A stretch of DNA of 64,000 nt from Corallium rubrum (lineage: Eukaryota; Cnidaria; Anthozoa; Scleralcyonacea; Coralliidae): positions 15,999,030-16,063,029 of the forward strand of contig OZ036004.1 in NCBI GenBank assembly GCA_964035015.1, read 5' to 3'. Made by a program: the position numbers and the translations under genes. A model generated the notes under the pieces. It ran no database searches. It was not told the DNA's origin and saw nothing but the letters and a program-made list of their open reading frames with translations. How positions within the stretch are numbered: position 1 is the stretch's first letter; the number at the start of each line of letters is the position of its first letter. This document shows, in pieces, positions 2,682 through 55,100 of the stretch.

Positions 2682-3554
2682 TTATGTATTACCATCACTG
2701 ACTAAAGGAGGTAAAAAATTAACAAGGTAACAACAAATCACCCAAATTTTATTTAGCTCTGCAATCATGCTTGTTGGATACCTTCCTTGGAGTATCCTAT
2801 AGTTTTTAATTCGTTCAATTGCCCGCTCAACATGTATACGCAAGGAGGCAATTCTCCTTGTTTCTGTCTCCTCTTCCACAGATAACTGGTCTTTACCCCT
2901 CATGAAGGCTGGAATGTTTAGTGTGACACCTTTCGGTAAGTCATCCAAAATTTCAAACCCTCGGTCAGCCATAACTGAATCACCTTCTTCCAATAGTTGT
3001 AAAACACCACTGTGCTTGGTAATATTTTGGTCACTTGTTCTACCAGGATACAGCTCAGAAACAAAGGTAACTGCTCCATTAGGTGCTACTCCAATAAGAC
3101 CTTTAGCTGTGTTCTGGTGCTTGTAGCTTGAGAATGTTGCACTCTGTGTTCGGTATGAAGATGCCATTTCAATAAATAATTCTGTGCAGTCTAATATGAC
3201 CCTAGTTGTTGGGTATGAATTTTGAAAACAACTTGGCATAGTTTTCTGGATTGATGCCTTGGATGCCCAGATTGGTATTGCTCGCAGATGCGAATGAAGT
3301 ATATCAATCCATGTAATGCATATCCGGCTGAGGTGGCTAGTGGACAGGTTGCATCTTACAGCAAGGTCTTGCTCAAGGAGACCACATCTCAACCTTGCTA
3401 AGACAATGAACAACTCTTGTTCAGGACTCATTTGTCTCTTTGGACCACGTTTTGATGACTCTGGCGTGACTGAGTCATCATTTCTGGTATTTGATCCCCA
3501 GTAGTTCAGTTTATTAACTGCTGGTCCCAGGAATTCAAAAAAGATCTTGAACAA
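2682..3554 (-). pseudogene. DDE transposase catalytic half (DDE_Tnp_4-like), ISL2EU type
   Basis: This 290-codon frame lies on the - strand. It begins with a helix-turn-helix region (PEQELFIVLARLRCG through STSHLSRICITW), followed by the RNase-H-like DDE domain: first Asp in ILDCTELFIEM, second Asp in VMADRGFEIL, catalytic Glu in IHVERAIERIKNYRI. A YPGRTSDQNIT motif lies between them, typical of the DDE_Tnp_4 family shared by Harbinger and ISL2EU elements. The true N-terminus is not at this frame's first Met. The upstream frame (3506-4110) ends in residues that run on into this one after a one-base deletion near 3557 (gttatg). The catalytic triad is intact, but the gene as assembled is broken. 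Confidence 0.85.
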
Positions 3555-4110
3555 ATCATAACTTGAAACCCAGTATAAAACATAAAAAGTTTTGGATTGT
3601 CCTTAAATGTTTCTAAAGAGAATGCATTCTCTTTTAGTTTCTGCTTAAGTTCGTTAATAGTGTTGGTCAACTCCTCTACCTTTTTACTGTTCTCCTGCTT
3701 CAGCTGTTCCATCTGCTCTTTTAGTTCTTGGTTTTCCTTTCGCAGTCTTTTCAATTCATTTGCCTCCTTGTTTTCAACATCTTGCTCAAATCGTAGTTTC
3801 TTTGGTAGTAGAGCTGAAGTCATCCTTCCTCCTGAACTATTTCTTGTCGTACGTGGCGTGGCTATGGTTGGTGTTGTTGACTTAATAGGCACGTTTATGG
3901 TGGGAATATTGTTCATGTATGTTTTCGTACCTCCAACAAAATGGGCTGAACAAACTCGATGGGAAGACGATGGGACAAAATTTTCCCGTTTAATCATGTG
4001 GAGCCACTTCTTCCTTAGGTTAGAATCCTTGGAATAACATAAAAGGACAATTTATCTTCTTTATTCCTGATAGAATTGTTGAAACAGTTTGGAACACAGC
4101 ATGTAATACC
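3506..4110 (-). pseudogene. THAP zinc finger plus coiled coil, N-terminal half of the transposase
   Basis: On the - strand a THAP-type finger is spread over two frames. ITCCVPNCFNN (about 4080-4106) supplies the first cysteines, and IKRENFVPSSSHRVCSAHF (about 3940-3995) supplies the C and H ligands. A missing base in ccaagg near 4018 separates the halves. A Lys/Glu-rich coiled coil follows (about 3600-3790), then FYTGFQV, the lead-in to the DDE part. THAP domains bind the transposon ends. The upstream ATG at 4331, inside the TIR, is a possible start, but the frame between it and the THAP finger also shifts, so the real start is unresolved. Confidence 0.75.
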
Positions 4111-28824: not shown

Positions 28825-29547
28825 GTAAAAGCAACATTTCTTGGACGTATAAGGGACAAATGAATCCTTATACGTCCAAGCATTATTACTTTTAGTAATA
28901 TTACAACGTGGTTTTTCTTGGTACCTTTAATTTAATTCTCTTTTTAACAATAACACATATAGGAAATAACACTGCTCGGCAAGAATTAATGAAAAATAGG
29001 TACGCAATGCGTACATGTGAGCACAGAAAGATATATAGACAAGCAATGCATGAAAATGCATGAAAAGCAGACAGATACCAGGGCCTTTTTTAACAAGCTG
29101 GGGCCAAGCCCCCCAGTCCCCCTTGGCCCCCCAACGAATTGATTTACGAAGCCCAAATAGCTTATCTGGTGGATAAATCCACCAGATTTTGTGATTCTGC
29201 TTGTATTTTAAATAAGACAGTACAACAATACCCAGTATTGTAGTTTCAACAGATATTTTTTTCATGTCAAGGCTTTCAACATATTCAAGTTTCAAGTTTC
29301 CCAACAGTTCACAATAGCTTTTTAAAATGTACAATTAAGTGACACTTAGACACCAGATTATAGAATATTTTAGTGCTTTCACAAGAGTCAGACTTCTGGT
29401 GTATCTCCTATTCCGTGGTCTACAAACTTTGGTTTCTTAATTTTATTACTCTGGCTACCGCAGGTAGACGAGTCTAGGTTTCGGTCGCGTTGTTAGTGTT
29501 TTTGTGACTACCGCTGACATGTCAGCGGTAGCCATAATGTCGGCGTG

Positions 29548-29810
<263 letters not shown>

Positions 29811-30607
29811 GCGGTTGTTTGGACCGCATTACGTCATACTCGTGCAGCCATCGATCGCCGGATATTCGACGCGATCGCTATTGATCGCTATCTAGTCAAG
29901 AAGATCGCCATTGATCGCCAAGTATTCGGGAAGTAGTCGAGTTGTTTTCGTGGCCTCGCGGGGAATGAACTAAAGTGAATCTCGTCTTTGCATTTTGGTT
30001 GCTCTCTCGATGACAGTTTTGATTTTTGAAAGTGTTAATTATTACTTTGCAAATCTTTTCTTCTTGGAACGGTTTCTGTCCGCATTGATCAGTTTATACA
30101 AGGTAAGAAATAGTTTCAAAACTGTGACGTTGTTTATCTTATATTCTATATACAAAATTTATAAGTACTTGATCGGAAACAGGGTACTGTACTTATAGCA
30201 TTACTAGAAATATTCAGCTTATAAAGTTTGCTAGAAGTTGGGCCTTCAACTTTCTTTTATCGAAGAAACTGATATATACCTAAATTATTTATAATGATAA
30301 AATCGCTTTATAAGTTTCAGTTTAATGTTGGTTGAATTGGGTGCTGATCAGTGACTCATGTTTATACTGCATGTACAGTACATGTATATATCATACACCA
30401 GTGCATACACTAAGAGTGAGAAGTGTGTTTTAACCAACTTCGAGCTAGGTGTTTTGATATTAGATCAAACACAACTTTCATTGTTTAGTGATCAAACAAA
30501 TCAGGAAATGAATTGTTTGATCACACATCAAACCTTTGTCTCGCTTATGATTTTCCTATCTGTTTGGTTTGTGAATTATTAATGAGTTCGAGAAGTATAT
30601 ATCACAT
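29811..30607. other. Interior of the fold-back, no gene seen
   Basis: Only short AT-rich ORFs. A repeated gatcgcta/ttgatcgc phrase lies at 29870-29915. Confidence 0.4.
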
Positions 30608-43143: not shown

Positions 43144-46100
43144 CCTCATCAACATGCACGGGAAATTTAGAAGACAAATGATAAATTTCCCTCTTTCATG
43201 AGCGATGGGGGAAATACGAGAACAAAAGAATCCGAGGCGATCATGGCATTACTAAATTAAAAATATCTGAGTTCATAGTCTTGAAAAGAAACACTCTATT
43301 ATAAAATTAAGTTATAAATTCAAATGCAGCCTATTTCCAGCTGCTTTTTAAGAAAAATAAAAATTTCTATCAAACAGCTGCAAATAGGCTTAATTTGATT
43401 TTACTCAATTTTACCAAAATATTCCCCTATGGGACAACTTTATACATATATGTGTCAACAAATAGTTGCTCAATTAAAGACGTTTTAGTCTTTATTAACA
43501 TTTGAACCTTAGTGTGGATACTTCTTTATTGTCAATTTTATTTATCTCTTTCTCGTCGATTTTTTCTAATCATGGCTGAATAATTGCAGTGTATGACTTA
43601 ATCGTTAAAAACAATTTTACTTTGTTTATAGTCATTTGACTGTGGTTGCTATTCGTGTGAAAATAATGGCAGATGTGAAAGACCCAAGAAGTCATGTTCA
43701 TGTTTTTCTGGTTTTACTGGAAAGAAGTGTGATAAAGGTATAATAATGAACTGAGATGTTTAACTCAAATTATATATTTTATATTTAGTTGTTATTAAAT
43801 TTCAGTAAACAAATTTGTATTGTTGTTTTATTATTTTCAGACGTCGACGAATGCGGTGTCCTTAATTCCTGTCACCAAAATTCCACGTGCAATAATACTG
43901 TTGGTTCTTATACTTGCACGTGTAATCATGGATTTACTGGAAATGGAACCAATTGTACAGGTGATTTATAATAAGTTCTTCTAGTTCTAGTGTTTTACAA
44001 CTTCTTTATTTTAGCATACGAGTAGATAACCCCCCCCCCCCCCCATCCACCGACACAAAGGGATGTCGCCTCATTAATATTCAGCGTGACTCACGCATCT
44101 TGACTCACGCACCGTGACTCACGCATGACTCACGCATGACTCACGCACCGTGACTCACGCACCATGACTCACGCATGACTCACGCCTGTGACATGATTAG
44201 GAAAGATTGGGATAATTATAGTATACATGAAATTATGTACGCTCGGACATTGCGATGTTAGGATTACACCTGGTCTGGTCGGCTAAGTTCGTTGGACGAA
44301 TCTGTACTTGTTCGAGACTTTAGAGAAAGATTGGAACGTTTGTTGAAAGCCGTTTAGAACTGAGACATGAATACTCGACATATAAATTGAATAATATGGA
44401 GACTTTGAATATTATATTAACCTAAATGATCAAACAGTCTTATACACGTTTTGTGGCAATAAGTGTTTTAAAGAGTTATCGTTTACTTTGGCCTACTTTG
44501 TAGAGGAACGAAACAGAAATGGATAGAGACACTTTATATTTTTTGTCTTAAACCTGGTTTGTAGGAATTTAGCGGGTTTTTTGGTTAAGTAATCTGAGTG
44601 TTATTTACGAAGAGATGAATGTTAACAGTTTTGGTCGAATTATCGCTTATCTAACCCTAGTGTATAGAGTATACGAATCCTTGGATGAAGAATCAATTCG
44701 AGAAGTCGTAAGAAGAACGATTTTAAGTGTGGAAATATAAAGCCAAAGCGGTTTATTACTTTGAAAGCGTTGCTACGCTTTCTGTTCCTAAGTGTGATAT
44801 TTGCATATTTATCCTCAGTGCACGTGCAGGAGACAAAAGAGAAACTCATTAGGGCAATTATGAGGATTAGGCAAGTCTAGGCGAGAAAGTCATTAACAAC
44901 ACGCGTACATGTAATACAGAATTTAAACTATTTTATTGAGAAATATATCTTTACACAAAAAACTCTTGATTATTTAGTGATCTATCGGTAACACTAGCAT
45001 ATGGGCATACAGTACATCTTATAATCCGAAGGCATGGATCATGAGTCTTGAATTCTGTACCACAAACATTACATATCAGATTTCGAATAACACATTTGTT
45101 AAAATATTTCCACAAACACGTAGGACACTCAATTACATGTGTAAAATTAACAGGATTCTGACAACGTTCGCAATCAACAGGTTCGTCAATTATAGAATTT
45201 CGGTGTAATCTTTATCGTGTTCTGAATCTTCTTCGGAGGACGTTTCTTCGTTTTTGCTCTCTGATTCTGCTTCTTCTTCTGCCTGCGCCAACATTGTCAG
45301 CACTCGAACATTTTCGATAAGGTTTTTGTCAATGTTAATGTCGGCGAGTCCTTTTACAAATACATTTAGACCAGCTGGTTCGGGAATTCCTGAGACGTAA
45401 GGTGATACGCAGTATTCTACCAATTCGGCTATTTTTGTGTTTGGTATAGTTCTTCCTTGATACACAATTTCTCCTTTGGGATTCCATGTTAAGTTGACAT
45501 AGGACGCGAGTAAACTATTCAGCAAAGAAGACGCTGTCGCTTCATCGACTCCGTAGTCAAAGTGTGACAGTATTACTTTAACACGAAAATCATCATGTAA
45601 TCTTTCTCCCATCGTGTTCAGGGTTCGAATGAGGGTCTTTACAAAATATCGTTCTTTTATATTAGTTCTGCGAGTCCGTCTAAAACAGAACCAAGTAAGA
45701 CATCAAGAAATCCTGCACCTTTTTGAACCAGTATCTCCTTTTTTCTCATAAAACTACTTCGGGGACTAGCCAAAGTTGATATGTCGTCGCTATAAGGCTT
45801 AACGTCTTCAAGCAAAGCAGGTGATAATTGATACTGCATTGACCAAAAGTTCAACATACAATCACAAATGCATCTAATTTGCTCGGGGTTTGCAGTCTCC
45901 AACAGAGCTCGCTGTTGAATAGGTTCACTTGTACATAAAAGTTCAAGAAACGGTTTATGCTTTTTCATCAACATCTCTATTTGACAGTCAGTGTCGAAAT
46001 GAGGAAAACGCTACCAAAACACACATTTTAAGAGGAGGAGGAGGAGGAGAAAGAGGAGGAGGAGAAAGAGGAGAAAGAGGAGGAGGAGGAGGAGAAAGAG

Positions 46101-49100
46101 GAGGAGAAAGAGGAGGAGAAAGAGGAGGAGGAGGAGAAAGAGGAGGAGGAGGAGAAAGAGGAGGAGGAGGAGGAGGAGGAGAAAGAGGAGGAGGAGAAAG
46201 AGGAGGAGGAAGAGGAGGAGGAGGAGAAAGAGGAGGAGGAGGAGGAGGAGGAGGAGGAGAAAGAGGAGGAGGAGGAGGAGGAGGAGAAAGAGGAGGAGGA
46301 GGAGAAAGAGGAGGAGGAGAAAGAGGAGGAGGAGGAGGAGGAGAGAGAGGAGGAGGAGGAGAAAGAGGAAGAGGCGGAGGAGGAGCAGAATAAATATTTC
46401 TAAAGAATGTCTTATTATTTATTTCTCCTCCGCCTCCTCCTCTTTCTCCTCCTCCTCCTCCTCCTCCTCCTCCTCTTTCTCCTCCTCCTCATTCTCCTCC
46501 TCCTCCTCCTCTCCTCCTCCTCCTCCTCCTTCTCCTCCTCCTCCTCCTCCTCCTCCTCTTTCTCCTCCTCTTTCTCCTCCTCCTCCTCCTCTTTCTCCTC
46601 TTTCTCCTTCTCCTCTTTCTCCTCCTCCTCCTCCTCTTAAAATGTTTTTTTAGTCGCGTTTTCCTCATTTCGACACTGACTGTCAAATAGAGATGTTGAT
46701 GAAAAAGCATAAACCGTTTCTTGAACTTTTATGTACAAGTGAACCTATTCAACAGCGAGCTCTGTTGGAGACTGCAAACCCCGAGCATATTAGATGCATT
46801 TGTGATTGTATGTTGAACTTTTGGTCAATGCAATATCAATTATCATCTGCTTTGCTTGAAGACGTTAAGCCTTATAGCGACGACATATCAACTTTGGCTA
46901 GTCCCCGAAGTAGTTTTATGAGAAAAAAGGAGATACTGGTTCAAAAAGGTGCAGGATTTCTTGATGTCTTACTTGGTCCTGTTTTAGACGGACTCGCAGA
47001 ACTAATATAAAAGAACGATATTTTGTAAAGACCCTCATTCGAACCCTGAACACGATGGGAGAAAGATTACATGATGATTTTCGTGTTAAAGTAATACTGT
47101 CACACTTTGACTACGAAGTTGATGAAGCGACAGCGTCTTCTTTGCTGAATAGTTTACTCGCGTCCTATGTCAACTTAACATGGAATCCCAAAGGAGAAAT
47201 TGTGTATCAAGGAAGAACTATACCAAACACAAAAATAGCCGAATTGGTAGAATACTGCGTATCACCTTACGTCTCAGGAATTCCCGAACCAGCTGGTCTA
47301 AATGTATTTGTAAAAGGACTCGCCGACATTAACATTGACAAAAACCTTATCGAAAATGTTCGAGTGCTGACAATGTTGGCGCAGGCAGAAGAAGAAACAG
47401 AATCAGAGAGCGAAAACGAAGAAACGTCCTCCGAAGAAGATTCAGAACACGATAAAGATTACACCGAAATAGAATCAGAAAATTCTATAATTGACGAACC
47501 TGTTGATTGCGAACGTTGTCAGAATCCTGTTAATTTTACACATGTAATTGAGTGTCCTACGTGTTTGTGGAAATATTTTAACAAATGTGTTATTCGAAAT
47601 CTGATATGTAATGTTTGTGGTACAGAATTCAAGACTCATGATCCATGCCTTCGGATTATAAGATGTACTGTATGCCCATATGCTAGTGTTACCGATAGAT
47701 CACTAAATAATCAAGAGTTTTTTGTGTAAAGATATATTTCTCAATAAAATAGTTTAAATTCTGTATTACATGTACGCGTGTTGTTAATGACTTTCTCGCC
47801 TAGACTTGCCTAATCCTCATAACTGCCCCTAATGAGTTTCTCTTTTGTCTCCTGCACGTGCACTGAGGATAAATATGCAAATATCACACTTAGGAACAGA
47901 AAGCGTAGCAACGCTTTCAAAGTAATAAACCGCTTTGGCTTTATATTTCCACACTTAAAATCGTTCTTCTTACGACTTCTCGAATTGATTCTTCATCCAA
48001 GGATTCGTATACTCTATACACTAGGGTTAGATAAGCGATAATTCGACCAAAACTGTTAACATTCATCTCTTCGTAAATAACACTCAGATTACTTAACCAA
48101 AAAACCGCTAAATTCCTACAAACCAGGTTTAAGACAAAAAATATAAAGTGTCTCTATCCATTTCTGTTTCGTTCCTCTACAAAGTAGGCCAAAGTAAACG
48201 ATAACTCTTTAAAACACTTATTGCCACAAAACGTGTATAAGACTGTTTGATCATTTAGGTTAATATAATATTCAAAGTCTCCATATTATTCAATTTATAT
48301 GTCGAGTATTCATGTCTCAGTTCTAAACGGCTTTCAACAAACGTTCCAATCTTTCTCTAAAGTCTCGAACAAGTACAGATTCGTCCAACGAACTTAGCCG
48401 ACCAGACCAGGTGTAATCCTAACATCGCAATGTCCGAGCGTACATAATTTCATGTATACTATAATTATCCCAATCTTTCCTAATCATGTCACAGGCGTGA
48501 GTCATGCGTGAGTCATGGTGCGTGAGTCACGGTGCGTGAGTCATGCGTGAGTCAAGATGCGTGAGTCACGCTGAATATTAATGAGGCGGCATCCCTTTGT
48601 GTCGGTGGATGGGGGGGGGGGGGGGGGTTATCTACTCATACGCAGAATTATTTTAAGCAGTTTGACATCATAGTCAATCGAGATATGGTCTGGAAACTCA
48701 GCTAAAGTATTTGGTCTATCTTTTTGTTCGCCTTTATTCATTTTTGTGCACGGTGCACGGTCACTGAACACATTGTATTTTAGTGTAATGAACGAATTGT
48801 CCAATAGCAACGTTTCAGTTCAATCACTCAACCGTGCTATTTAAATATTAATAAACCTAAAACAAAGGATGTGCACGGTGTAAGGTACGGTTCAACATAA
48901 AATCCCAGCTCATTATAGGCGCTTTGAAGTTTGCCGAGTTTCCAGACCATATCTCGATTGACTATGTTGACATTTTGATTAGTTAGACTTTTTAGAATTT
49001 CCAGTTGTATCTTTCACAGATAATTCTCAAATTTATGTTATTATATACTTAAACTGAATTGACTTTTTTACTTGTGAACAATGTTTTAATCTTGTTCTAT

Positions 49101-52100
49101 TATTTTTCAAACGTTGACGAATGCAGTTTGAGCTCCAATACCTGCCACCAAAATTCTACTTGCAATAATACAGTAGGTTCTTATACTTGCACATGTAATG
49201 AAGGATTTACTGGAAATGGAACCAACTGCCTAGGTTATTAGTCCTTCTAGCTCTACAACATTTTAAAATTATTTTAGCACACGCAGAGTTATTTTAAGCA
49301 GGTTGACATTTTGGTTTGTTAAAACTGTTAAATTTTAGGTTGGATTTTTTACAGATGATAGGATATTGAATTCAAATTCATACCACTATATACTTAAACT
49401 ACATTTTTTACTAGTAAACTATGTTTTAACGTTGTTCTATTATTTTCCAGACGTTAATGAATGCAGTAACTCTAATTCCTGCCAGAAACATTCCACTTGC
49501 AATAATAGTGTTGGTTTCTATACCTGCATTTGTAATCAAGGATTTACGGGAAATGGAAGCAATTGCACAGGTGATTAGTTTATCTAGTTCTAGAATTGAT
49601 TTGTTTTATCTTATTTTAGTATATATAGAATTATTTTAAGCAGTTTAACATTTTGGTTAGTTAAAATTGTTAGAATTTCCACGGTTGACATTTTACAGAT
49701 GACAGGATATTGAACTCAAATTTATACCATTATATACATTTTTAGTATCTTATTTTAGTATATATATCATTATTTTAAGCAGTTTAACGTTTTGGTTAGG
49801 TAAAATTGTTAGAATTTCCACAGTTGACATTTTACAGGTGACAGGATATTGAACTCAAATTTATACCATTATATACTTAAGCTAAAGTAATTTTTTTACT
49901 AGTAAATGATGTTTTACATAACCGTATTTTATTATTTTAAAGACGTTGACGAATGCACTTCGAGCCCAATGCGCTGCCACAAAAATTCCACTTGCAATAA
50001 TACTGTTGGTTCTTATACTTGCACATGTAATCAAGGATTTACTGGAAATGGAACCAACTGCACATGTTATTAGTCCTTCTAACTCTACAACTTCTTCATT
50101 TTAGCATACGCAGAATTATTTTAAGCAGTTTGACATTTTGGTTTGTTAAAATTGTTAGAATTTTAGGTTGGACATTTTTCAGATGACAGGATATTGAACA
50201 CAAATTTATACCATTATATACTTAAACTACATTTTTGTTACTAGTAAAAAATGTTTTAACGTTGTTATATTATTTTTCAGACGTTAATGAATGTAGTAAC
50301 CCTAATTCCTGCCAACAAAATTCCACTTGCAATAATACTATTGGTTCTTATACCTGCATATGTAATCAAGGATTTACTGGAAGTGGAACCAACTGCACAG
50401 GTGATTAGTTTATCTAGTTCTACAAATATTTTGTTTTATCTTATTTTACTATATGCAGAATTATTTTAAGCAGTTTAACATTTTGGATAGTTAAATTGTT
50501 AGAATTTCCAAGGATGGACATTTTACAGATGACAGGATAATAAACTCAAATTTATACCATTATATACTTAAACTACATTTTTGTTACAAGTAAAAAATGT
50601 TTTAACGTTGTTCTATTATTTTTCAGACGTTAATGAATGTAGTAATCCTAATTCCTGCCAACAAAATTCTACTTGCAATAATACTATTGGTTCTTATATC
50701 TGCATATGTAATCAAGGATTTACTGGAAATGGAACCAACTGCACAGGTGATTAGTTCATCTAGTTCTACAAATATTTTGTTTTATCTTATTTTACTATAT
50801 ACAGAATTATTTTAAGCAGTTTAACATTTTGGTTAGTTAAATTGTTAGAATTTCCAAGGATGGACATTTTACAGATGACAGGATATTGAACTCAAATTTA
50901 TTTCATTATATACATTTTTAGTACCTTATTTTAGTATATATATAGAATTATTTTAAGCAGTTTAACATTTTGGTTAGGTAAAATTGTTAGAATTTCCACG
51001 GTTGACATTTTATAGATAACTCAGATTACCATTATATACTTAAGCTAAAGTAATTTTTTTACTAGTAAACGATGTTTTATTTAACCGTATTCTGTTATTT
51101 TTAAGACGTTGACGAATGCACTTCCAGCCCCATGCGCTGCCACAAAAATTCCACTTGCAATAATACTGTTGGTTCTTATACTTGCACATGTAATCAAGGA
51201 TTTACTGGAAATGGAACCAACTGCACAGGTTATTAGTCCTTCTAGCTCTACAACTTCTTTATTTTAGCATACGCAGAATTATTTTAAGCAGTTTGACATT
51301 TTGGTTTGTTAAAATTGTTAGAATTTTAGGTTGGATATTTTACAGATGAGAGGATATTGAATTCAAATTTACACCATTATATACTTGAACTACACTTTTG
51401 TTACTAGTAAAAAATTTTTTAACGTTGTTCTATTATTTTCAGACGTTAATGAATGTAGTAATCCTAATTCCTGCCAACAAAATTCCACTTGCAATAATAC
51501 TATTGGTTCTTATACCTGCATATGTAATCAAGGATTTACTGGAAATGGAACCAACTGCATAGGTGATTAGTTTATCTAGTTCTACAAATATTTTGTTTTA
51601 TCTTATTTTACTTGGAATTTCCACGGTTGGACATTTTACAGATGACAGGATATTGAACTCAAATTTATACCATTATATACTTAAACTACATTTTTGTTAC
51701 TTGTAAAAAATGTTTTAACGTTGTTCTATTATTTTTCAGACGTTAATGAATGCAGTAACCCTACTTCCTGCCAACAAAATTCCACTTGCAATAATAGTGT
51801 TGGTTCTTATACCTGCATATGTAATCAAGGATTTACAGGAAATGGAACCAACTGCACAGGTGATTAGTTTATCTAGTTCTACAAATATTTTGTTTTATCT
51901 TATTTTACTATAAACAGAATAATTTTAAGCAGTTTAACATTTTGGTTAGTTAAATTGTTAGAATTTCCACGGTTGGACATTTTACAGATGACAAGATATT
52001 GAACTCAAATTTATACCATTATATACTTAAACTAAAGTAATTTTGTTACTACTAAACGATGTTTTATATAACCGTATTCTATTATTTTAAAGACGTTGAC

Positions 52101-55100
52101 GAATGTACTTCAAGCCCCATGCGCTGCCAAAAAAAATTCCACTTGCAATAATACTGTTGGTTCTTATACTTGCACATGTAATCCCGGATTTACTGGAACT
52201 GGAACCAACTGCACAGGTTATTAGTCCTTCTAGCTCTACAACTTCTTTATTTTAGCATACGCAGAATTATTTTAAGCAGTTTGACATTTTGGTTTGTTGA
52301 AATTGTTAGAATTGTAGGTTGGATATTTTACAGATGATAGGATATTGAATTCAAATTTATAACATTATATACTTAAACTATGTTTTTGTTACTAGTAAAA
52401 AAATGTTTTAACGTTGTTCTATTATTTTTCAGACGTTAATGAATGTGGTAACCCTAATTCCTGCCAACAAAATTCCACTTGCAATAATACTATTGGTTCT
52501 TATACCTGCATATGTAATGAAGGATTTACTGGAAATGGAACCAACTGCACAGGTGATTAGTTCATCTAGTGCTACAAATATTTTGTTTTATCTTATTTTA
52601 CTATATACAGAATTATTTTAAGCAGTTTAACATTTTGGTTAGTTAAATTGTTAGAATTTCCGAGGATGGACATTTTACAGATGACAGGATATTGAACTCA
52701 AATTTATACCATTATATACATTTTTAGTATCTTATTTTATTATGTATAGAATTATTTTAAGCAGTTTAACATTTTGGTTAGGTAAAATTGTTAAAATTTC
52801 CACGGTTGACATTTTATAGATGACAGGATAATGAACTCAAATTTATACCATTATATACTCAAGCTAAAGTAATTTTTTTACTAGTAAACGATGTTTTATA
52901 TAACCGTGTTCTATTATTTTAAAGACGTTGACGAATGCACTTCGACCCCCATGCGCTGCCACAAAAATTCCACTTGCAATAATACTGTTGGTTCTTATAC
53001 TTGCACATGTAATCCTGGATTTACTGGAAATGGAACCAACTGCACAGGTTATTAGTTCGTCTAGCTCTACAACTTCTTTTTTTTTAGCATACGCAGAATT
53101 ATTTTAAGCAGTTTGACATTTTGGTTTGTTAAAATTGTGAGAATTTTACGTTGGATATGTTAAAGATGATAGGATATTGAATTCAAATTTATATCATTAT
53201 ATACTTAAGCTACATTTTTGTTACTAGTGAACAATGTTTTAACGTTGTTCTATTATTTTTCAGACGTTAATGAATGCAGTAACTCCATTTCCTGCCCGCA
53301 AAATTCCACTTGTAATAATACTGTTGGTTCTTATACCTGCATATGTAATCAAGGATTTACTGGAAATGGGACCAACTGCACAGGTGATTAGTTTATCTAG
53401 TTCTACAAATATCTTGTTTTATTTTATTTTACTATATACAGAATTATTTTAAGAAGACAGAGCAGTTTAACATTTTGGTTAGTTAAAATTATTAGAATTT
53501 CCACAGTTGGACATTTTACAGATGACAGGATATTGAAGTTAAATTTATACCATTATAAACTTGAACTAACTCTTTTACTAGTAAACAATGTTTTAACGTT
53601 GTCCTATTATTTATCAGACCTTGACGAATGCAGGTCGAGCCCCAACCGCTGCCACCAAAATTCCACTTGCAATAATACTGTTTGGTTCTTATACTTGCAC
53701 ATGCAATCAAGGATTTACTGGAAATGGAACCAAGTGCACAGGAAATATATTTATTTTGATAATATGCAACGCAATATGCAACGCAATATGCAACGCAATA
53801 TGCAACGCAATATGCAACGCAATATGCAACGCAATACGCAATGCAATACGCAATGCAATACGCAATGCAATACGCAATGCAATACGCAATGCAATACGCA
53901 ATGCAATACGCAATGCAATACGCAATGCAATACGCAATGCAATACGCAATGCAATACGCAATGCAATACGCAATGCAGTACGCAATGCAATACGCAATGC
54001 AATACGCAATGCAATACGCAATGCAATACGCAATGCGATACGCAACGCAATATGCAACGCAATATGCAACGCAATATGCAACGCAATATGCAACGCAATA
54101 TGCAACGCAATATGCAACGCAATATTATGAATGAAATGGATCAAATAGAATCATTGGGCAGACTAAAGTATTTTGTATATAGTCAACCCTAACTTTTTAA
54201 GCTCGCACTTTTTAAAATTTGGTAAACTTCCTCTTTCTTAAATTTGGTAACTCACACTCGTTTTCTATGAGCGAATAATCAACTCGACAACTCGGCTTCG
54301 GCTCATTGACTATTCGATCAATCAATCGATCATAGGAAACTCGGGCTCGTTGTCTAATTTTTAAATATCACATTTACTGGAGCGCAATTCGGCTTACCTT
54401 CGTGAGCGTTCGTACCACGTCCGTACATACGAAGAAACTCTCTGATAGTCTTACGTGTGACTATATTCACGAAACATCGTTAGTCACATACGCTCTGGAT
54501 GCAACCGAGGTCATGACATATAGTGGATCCGTAGTTTTGGCGCCCAGTATCCGCAAAACCCCTAATTAAGCCTAGTCTGAAATCAGGTTTACTACCTTGC
54601 ATTTTGGAAAAACATATTTGACGACATATTTTGGAAATGCCGGGAAAGGACTGGACGGCTCCCTTTAAGTCATTTCTTTTTACCTCGACAGTCGTCTATA
54701 ACGTGCACAAATTTCTTGTTTTTTACTTATTAATATTTAAATAACACGGTTGAGTGATTGGCCCTAAACGCTGCTATTGGGTGACTGCATTATAACAAAA
54801 ATACTACGCTAAGTTTCTAGACCATCTTTCAATAGACTGTACCTTTACTCTAACTGGACCAGCGTTAGTTGGAATCTAGGTATAGTGCTAACACTTTGGC
54901 TAAACACGAGAAAAAGAAAGTAACTGCAAAAAAGAGGAAAACTTGATGTTCAAAAACGTTGTCACAAATTCAGTGTCACACCAAGATTCGAACCCTCTAG
55001 CTTTTGCGGCATTAACAATGATAAGTTGTACGTATATACATGTAGTGCATGTGGTACGTTTGCCTGACATTTAGCTTTCCATCTAAGCCTCAGTGGTGGA

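Follow-up and report, generated by a model that had tools for sequence, protein, structure and literature searches.

A near-perfect palindrome in Corallium rubrum belongs to an amplified family of probable fold-back satellites of a Polinton

The DNA analysed here, referred to as the window, is a stretch of 64,000 nucleotides from the Corallium rubrum contig OZ036004.1. At positions 44021-48636 it contains a palindrome of 4616 bp, which carries the terminus AGTAGATAACCCCC at either end and is flanked by the target-site duplication CATACG (44015-44020 on the left, 48637-48642 on the right). The ends are inverted repeats starting with AG and read AGTAGATAAC on both sides, an AGTAG-type terminus. 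Most of the element is made up of inverted arms of 823, 456, 349 and 280 nt with 99-100% complementarity. Of the 1638 sites aligned in the 1.64-kb core, 0.73% differ between one arm and the other, so that the palindrome is near-perfect, not perfect. A previous reading of this DNA from its letters only, the sequence-only reading, had described a 4.6-kb near-perfect palindrome with AG ends and the 6-bp duplication CATACG, and this description is confirmed. When the flanks are joined and one copy of the duplication is retained, they match positions 50086-50136, in a repeated EGF-like unit, at 98% over 51 bp. Because this paralogous empty site is clean, the whole palindrome was inserted as a single piece. 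The insertion lies in an array of EGF-like exon units, repeated in tandem at intervals of about 340 bp, between 43700 and 50200 of the window.

The left arm (44021..46018, plus strand, microsatellite excluded) begins with a terminal region (44021..44260, plus strand) that contains a poly-C run, a short variable tag and TGACTCACGC-type repeats. Further inside are a 41-codon remnant of a small Bcl-2/E1B-19K-like frame (44615..44740, plus strand), the left copy of gene Y (44951..45612, minus strand), split into frames of 140 and 54 residues, and the left copy of gene M (45657..45974, minus strand), which is open. The inverted right arm (46648..48636, minus strand) contains an open M of 105 residues (46693..47010, plus strand) and an open Y of 224 residues with a Cys-rich C-terminal region (47055..47729, plus strand). 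The order from outside to inside is thus poly-C, tag, TGACTCACGC-type repeats, small-frame remnant, Y and M, with Y and M facing outwards. The duplicated outward-facing genes of the sequence-only reading are present in both arms; the left Y is broken. A GA-rich microsatellite of the left arm (46030..46385) and a CT-rich one of the right arm (46425..46636) meet over 41 bp at the centre (46386..46426, minus strand), which match the leader of an ATPase gene in sister copies. The Bcl-2/E1B-19K-like label is based on Pfam matches below the cut-off; the frame is longer elsewhere, with 96 residues in the palindrome L029 and 122 residues beside the left end of a full-length Polinton, C13, described below. 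A survey of open reading frames found only Y, M and low-complexity frames in the element and no other long frame. It therefore encodes no polymerase or integrase: no frame for PolB or an rve integrase was found in it, both of which are present in C13, nor any frame for capsid proteins or a protease.

Searching the same genome with the arm gave at least 105 matches (best 40 of 2173 candidates scored). Genome-wide counts here and below rest on the best-scored candidates of longer lists and are hence minima. The arm matches fall into 27 listed loci besides the window; 20 were fetched and seven left out. All 20 fetched loci have two inverted arms, the left one being reduced in L023, and 19 have exact 6-bp duplications, each unlike the CATACG of the window. 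Since the fetched loci are palindromic throughout and nearly all are flanked by duplications, the window palindrome is not an isolated assembly accident. The sequence-only reading had predicted such further copies, with the same ends and other duplications. Both ends were read or attempted in 30 elements. An exact 6-bp duplication flanks 27 of these, with 26 different sequences among them. The 27 are the window element, the 19 fetched copies, the palindromes L029, L030, L037, L031 and L032, a PolB palindrome (C49) and the C13 Polinton. Duplications were read by eye in L031 and L032 and by script in the window, the fetched copies, L029, L030 and L037; those of L014 and L020 need the end to be moved by 3 bases. 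The three exceptions have an N at the right end (L013), undefined ends (L033) or a damaged left end (L036). The terminal region as query gave at least 43 matches (best 40 of 2028 candidates scored), which pair in inverted orientation at 3.1-5.4 kb, with none longer among the matches listed. Palindromes of the family measure 3-9 kb, with genes in two copies. Structure, ends and duplications of the family are in these respects directly observed, and they mark the window element as a mobile unit.

The arms of a single copy differ by 0-2.9% in the core. With L023 set aside, the closest relative of an arm is its own partner in 8 of 20 copies, with 3 ties and 9 copies in which it is not; L015 and L019 have unlike arms, 2.9% and 2.7% apart. 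Because own-arm pairing is limited to these 8 and the arms of L015 and L019 have diverged, we conclude that many copies keep their two arms alike while others do not, and that copies recombine. The end tags are more regular. They are identical on both sides in 23 of 25 palindromic copies (L013, L033, L036 and C49 were outside this test), compared with a mean of 2.8 and a maximum of 10 in 20000 shuffles. One tag, CATATGGTGTATC, is common to the PolB palindrome C49, L015 and L026.

The centre of most fetched copies holds an ATPase gene, with a whole match in 13 of the 20, a partial match in 6 and none in one (L009); in 8 of the 13 the frame reaches its normal end. The protein has an N-terminal C2H2 finger and matches Pox_A32 at 25.5 bits, above the cut-off of 22.8. 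Ten pairings of five satellite copies give ratios of nonsynonymous to synonymous substitution rates (dN/dS) of 0.12-0.26, and the gene is under purifying selection. Relatives number 542, and the named ones among the 120 listed are from the coral Oculina patagonica; in the same genome the best 95 of 2226 candidate loci were scored. The 41-bp centre of the window element matches the ATPase leader of L012, L013 and L021 at 97.6%. Because it keeps this leader, the window copy is a deletion derivative of the commoner three-gene palindrome with a central ATPase, and its centre is the scar of the lost gene. Microsatellites occupy the centre of the M-Y palindromes, and the central repeat is a different one in the A|A copies. 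Other forms of the palindrome also occur. In L029, L031 and L037 an ATPase gene replaces Y and M in each arm, L032 and L033 are mixed and asymmetric, and L036 has no gene at all. L032 contains a 1340-bp inverted repeat at 99.9% that includes the ATPase 3' end on both sides. Two loci are nested inverted arrays with a self-complementarity of 98.8-99%: L030 (C15:1744300-1753700), where Y-M arms enclose three ATPase copies, all whole matches, and L031 (C12:351300-361000), with four ATPase matches, two of them partial, and ends AGTAGTGATACC.

A PolB profile search of the genome gave at least 199 matches (best 76 of 1079 candidates scored), with PolB genes in inverted pairs. The pair at C49 forms a 12.3-kb palindrome with the duplication GACCTC. 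Its end sequence is that of the window element, and its arms are 99.7% identical across the 2312 bp compared. With the C49 end as query, nine inverted pairs 10-13 kb apart were found (best 40 of 1220 candidates scored). No capsid-gene match lies inside these nine pairs, of which C49 is the one whose sequence was read. At least 11 capsid-gene matches are within 20 kb of a PolB-type end.

At one of these 11 places, C13:9599065-9612278, a full-length Polinton of 13.2 kb, with the duplication TATATC, was read at both ends and over most of its interior. Its ends are of the same kind as those of C49 and the window element, and the left end of L013 has 1 mismatch to the right end of C13 in the first 107 bp, a much closer likeness than that of the proteins given below. 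The first strand encodes, in order, a GRF zinc ribbon, the Bcl-2/E1B-19K-like frame (sub-cut-off), an integrase with a chromodomain, three probable virion genes and a protease that matches the solved S273R protease (E 1.3e-5). After the protease, the opposite strand encodes a Y-like protein, an M-like protein, an A32 ATPase and PolB. The probable capsid protein has no Pfam or solved-structure match; the virion genes are presumably those for capsid, penton-like and core proteins, names we assign from general knowledge and gene position. The two ends of C13 carry tags unlike each other. Tags that are mostly equal within palindromes and unlike at the C13 ends are what would be expected if each palindrome derived from a single end. 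The order and direction of the window arm (end, Bcl-2-like frame, reversed Y, reversed M, then ATPase) are those of C13 with the middle missing. The capsid-type gene of the C13 family gave 95 matches (best 94 of 379 candidates scored), many of them full-length, open and 95-100% identical. A single inverted pair within 15 kb occurs among them (C30:408887-410230 and C30:414367-415356), which may be a capsid palindrome.

The open right copy of Y in the window is 27% identical over 148 aligned codons to a 243-aa protein of the C13 Polinton, and the right copy of M is 29% identical to a 109-aa protein. The window proteins are thus distant homologues of two adjacent Polinton genes, in agreement with the virus-like character first attributed to them. 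Pfam and PHROGs scans gave nothing above threshold for either protein. In the protein database the 224-aa protein had two matches and the 105-aa protein none. Viral contigs, scanned four times, and contigs of prokaryote genomes, scanned once, yielded no relatives. Structure prediction gave a poor model of the 224-aa protein, with a mean predicted local distance difference test score (pLDDT) of 41.7. Against the L032 type, dN/dS is 0.32 for Y and 0.47 for M; between the window and L013 the values are 1.09 and 0.52, from too few changes to be informative.

On these grounds we think it likely that the window element belongs to an old, amplified family of palindromic, fold-back (snapback-like) satellites of an adintovirus-like Polinton, copied and integrated by a helper. 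The palindromes have their ends in common with a full-length Polinton of the same genome and are, in this respect, non-autonomous Polinton derivatives. Like a snapback or defective genome they are inverted duplications of one end; at 27-43% identity they are not recently derived from the helper. In the mechanism we propose, a linear Polinton strand would fold back during protein-primed replication, so that both sides would be copies of one end. With a short hairpin loop the product would be a pure palindrome, and with a longer loop it would retain a unique centre. In the Y-M arm, internal genes were joined to a left-type end through loss of the intervening part. A co-resident Polinton could then copy and insert the satellite in trans, because both ends would carry the helper origin and integrase site, and folding of the palindrome would keep both arms and end tags alike. 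The satellite ATPase and the 105- and 224-aa proteins are probably used in packaging or in the particle.

Several observations weigh against this explanation. The identity to the C13 homologues is low (29% for M, 27% for Y, 43% for the ATPase), none of the 95 scored satellite-type ATPases has any of the 76 PolB loci or 95 capsid-gene matches less than 20 kb away, and there is no close full-length parent among the scored loci. Two of the 95 ATPases, about 2 kb from a PolB-type end, are mixed forms. The three or four ATPase matches of L030 and L031, and the unlike arms of L015 and L019, need recombination beyond one fold-back. Near-identical interiors also carry different tags (L010, L012), so that tags must move between copies as well. 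Because its genes are so far from those of C13, we take the palindrome to be an old satellite lineage and not a fresh fold-back of C13. With these amendments the sequence-only reading is supported: both the other copies and the full-length Polinton with the same termini that it predicted were found, the latter with PolB, integrase, A32 ATPase and protease. Its description of a unit of terminal genes holds for the lack of replication genes but not for Y and M, which are internal in C13, between protease and ATPase, and have been joined to a left-type end.

Could the palindromes have arisen without fold-back replication? In an ordinary non-autonomous transposon, gene conversion might extend the terminal inverted repeats, as might recombination of one copy with another at the GA/CT microsatellites. 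The 1340-bp repeat of L032, which spans the ATPase 3' end on both sides at 99.9%, the central microsatellites of the M-Y palindromes and the hybrid arms of L015 and L019 are all in keeping with such a process. However, three gene sets and both Polinton ends are palindromic with matching tags on each side, which fold-back would lead one to expect and for which conversion would need a special rule, and the central repeat of the A|A copies is another one; we therefore regard this origin as doubtful. An artefact of assembly or sequencing is extremely improbable. Long-read sequencing is known to produce fold-back chimeras, but here 27 of 30 elements lie between unlike, unique outer flanks linked by an exact 6-bp duplication, the arms of single copies differ by 0-2.9% in the core, and there is an empty site.

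Alternatively, a Polinton-like virus might have a multipartite genome, with the M-Y, ATPase and PolB palindromes as its regular segments. These would have their ends in common, would reassort and would be packaged jointly or separately, in the manner of segmented bidnaviruses. Palindromes with separate gene sets do share end sequences, the tag CATATGGTGTATC occurs on the PolB palindrome as well as on L015 and L026, the satellite ATPase is conserved and lies outside full-length elements in the scored sample, and segmented bidnaviruses bearing PolB are described (PMC11071296). We nevertheless judge this arrangement to be quite improbable. Complete 13-kb Polintons with these ends combine PolB, integrase and capsid-like genes with ATPase, M and Y homologues of their own in a single molecule, so that segments are not required for a full gene set. 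The capsid-gene matches, moreover, are single except for one inverted pair (C30:408887/414367). A more general form of the idea seems to us unlikely: a segmented or satellite-supported Polinton virus in which chromosomally inherited palindromes with partial gene sets, one polymerase and their own packaging ATPase are stable partners or parasites, not replication accidents.

Linear DNA viruses are known to produce fold-back genomes as transient by-products. The fold-back-like forms described here are numerous residents of the genome; their duplications are clean, their gene lineages have diverged and they have genes under purifying selection. They resemble Polintons (Mavericks) of the adintovirus-like kind in their AGTAG ends, inverted termini, 6-bp duplications and M, Y and A32 ATPase homologues, but are palindromic, 3-9 kb instead of at least 13 kb, have doubled genes and lack PolB, integrase, protease and capsid genes. 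Foldback elements and miniature inverted-repeat transposable elements (MITEs) have long inverted repeats and spread non-autonomously. The gene-less L036 is similar to these; most copies of the family differ in having virus-type genes under selection. The nearest parallel is provided by the snapback subgenomes of adeno-associated virus, which are reported (PMC8235507) to be inverted duplications of the left or right half, either symmetric or with an unpaired loop, and to replicate when given Rep and helper functions. Those forms are transient in virus stock and belong to another kind of virus; the coral palindromes are integrated, inherited and high-copy, with selected genes. The nearest multipartite case is the Bidnaviridae, which (PMC4061559, PMC11071296) have a Polinton-type PolB, terminal inverted repeats and, in some members, several segments, and are defined by a parvovirus-type capsid and helicase. 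Neither a parvovirus-type capsid nor a superfamily 3 (SF3) helicase was seen in the frames read, with no search aimed at them.

The sequence-only reading knew of no described element of this form, and our searches, within the literature collection that they covered, likewise found no report of palindromic or non-autonomous Polintons. If our explanation is correct, a Polinton has long-lived satellites of its own, and the palindromes point indirectly to continuing replication of animal Polintons in linear form, with their ends accessible. They would also constitute a genomic record against which ideas on fold-back origin, homogenisation of the arms and dependence on a helper can be tested. In annotation, such palindromes may be divided into unrelated repeats.

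A second Polinton family is represented at about C30:775577-799100. The element has ends AGTAGTATAGG, the duplication ACAGAC and its own integrase, PolB and A32 ATPase. It was considered as a parent and dropped, as its ends differ and the palindrome L029 is inserted inside it. L029 (2528-7227 of C30:781800-791500) is an ATPase-type palindrome with the duplication CAGAGC, located within a frame of this other family. The C30-family integrase was scored in the best 113 of 1416 candidates; because these are 93-100% identical and mostly open, the expansion of the family must be very recent. Elsewhere in the window are a YqaJ-type nuclease frame (1315-2043), a DDE_Tnp_4 transposase frame (2682-3997) with an overlapping coiled-coil frame upstream, and long tandem repeats of coding-like character, with several frames open, at 29455-29936 and 53533-54192 (SKQA units; ICNA/IRNA-type units).

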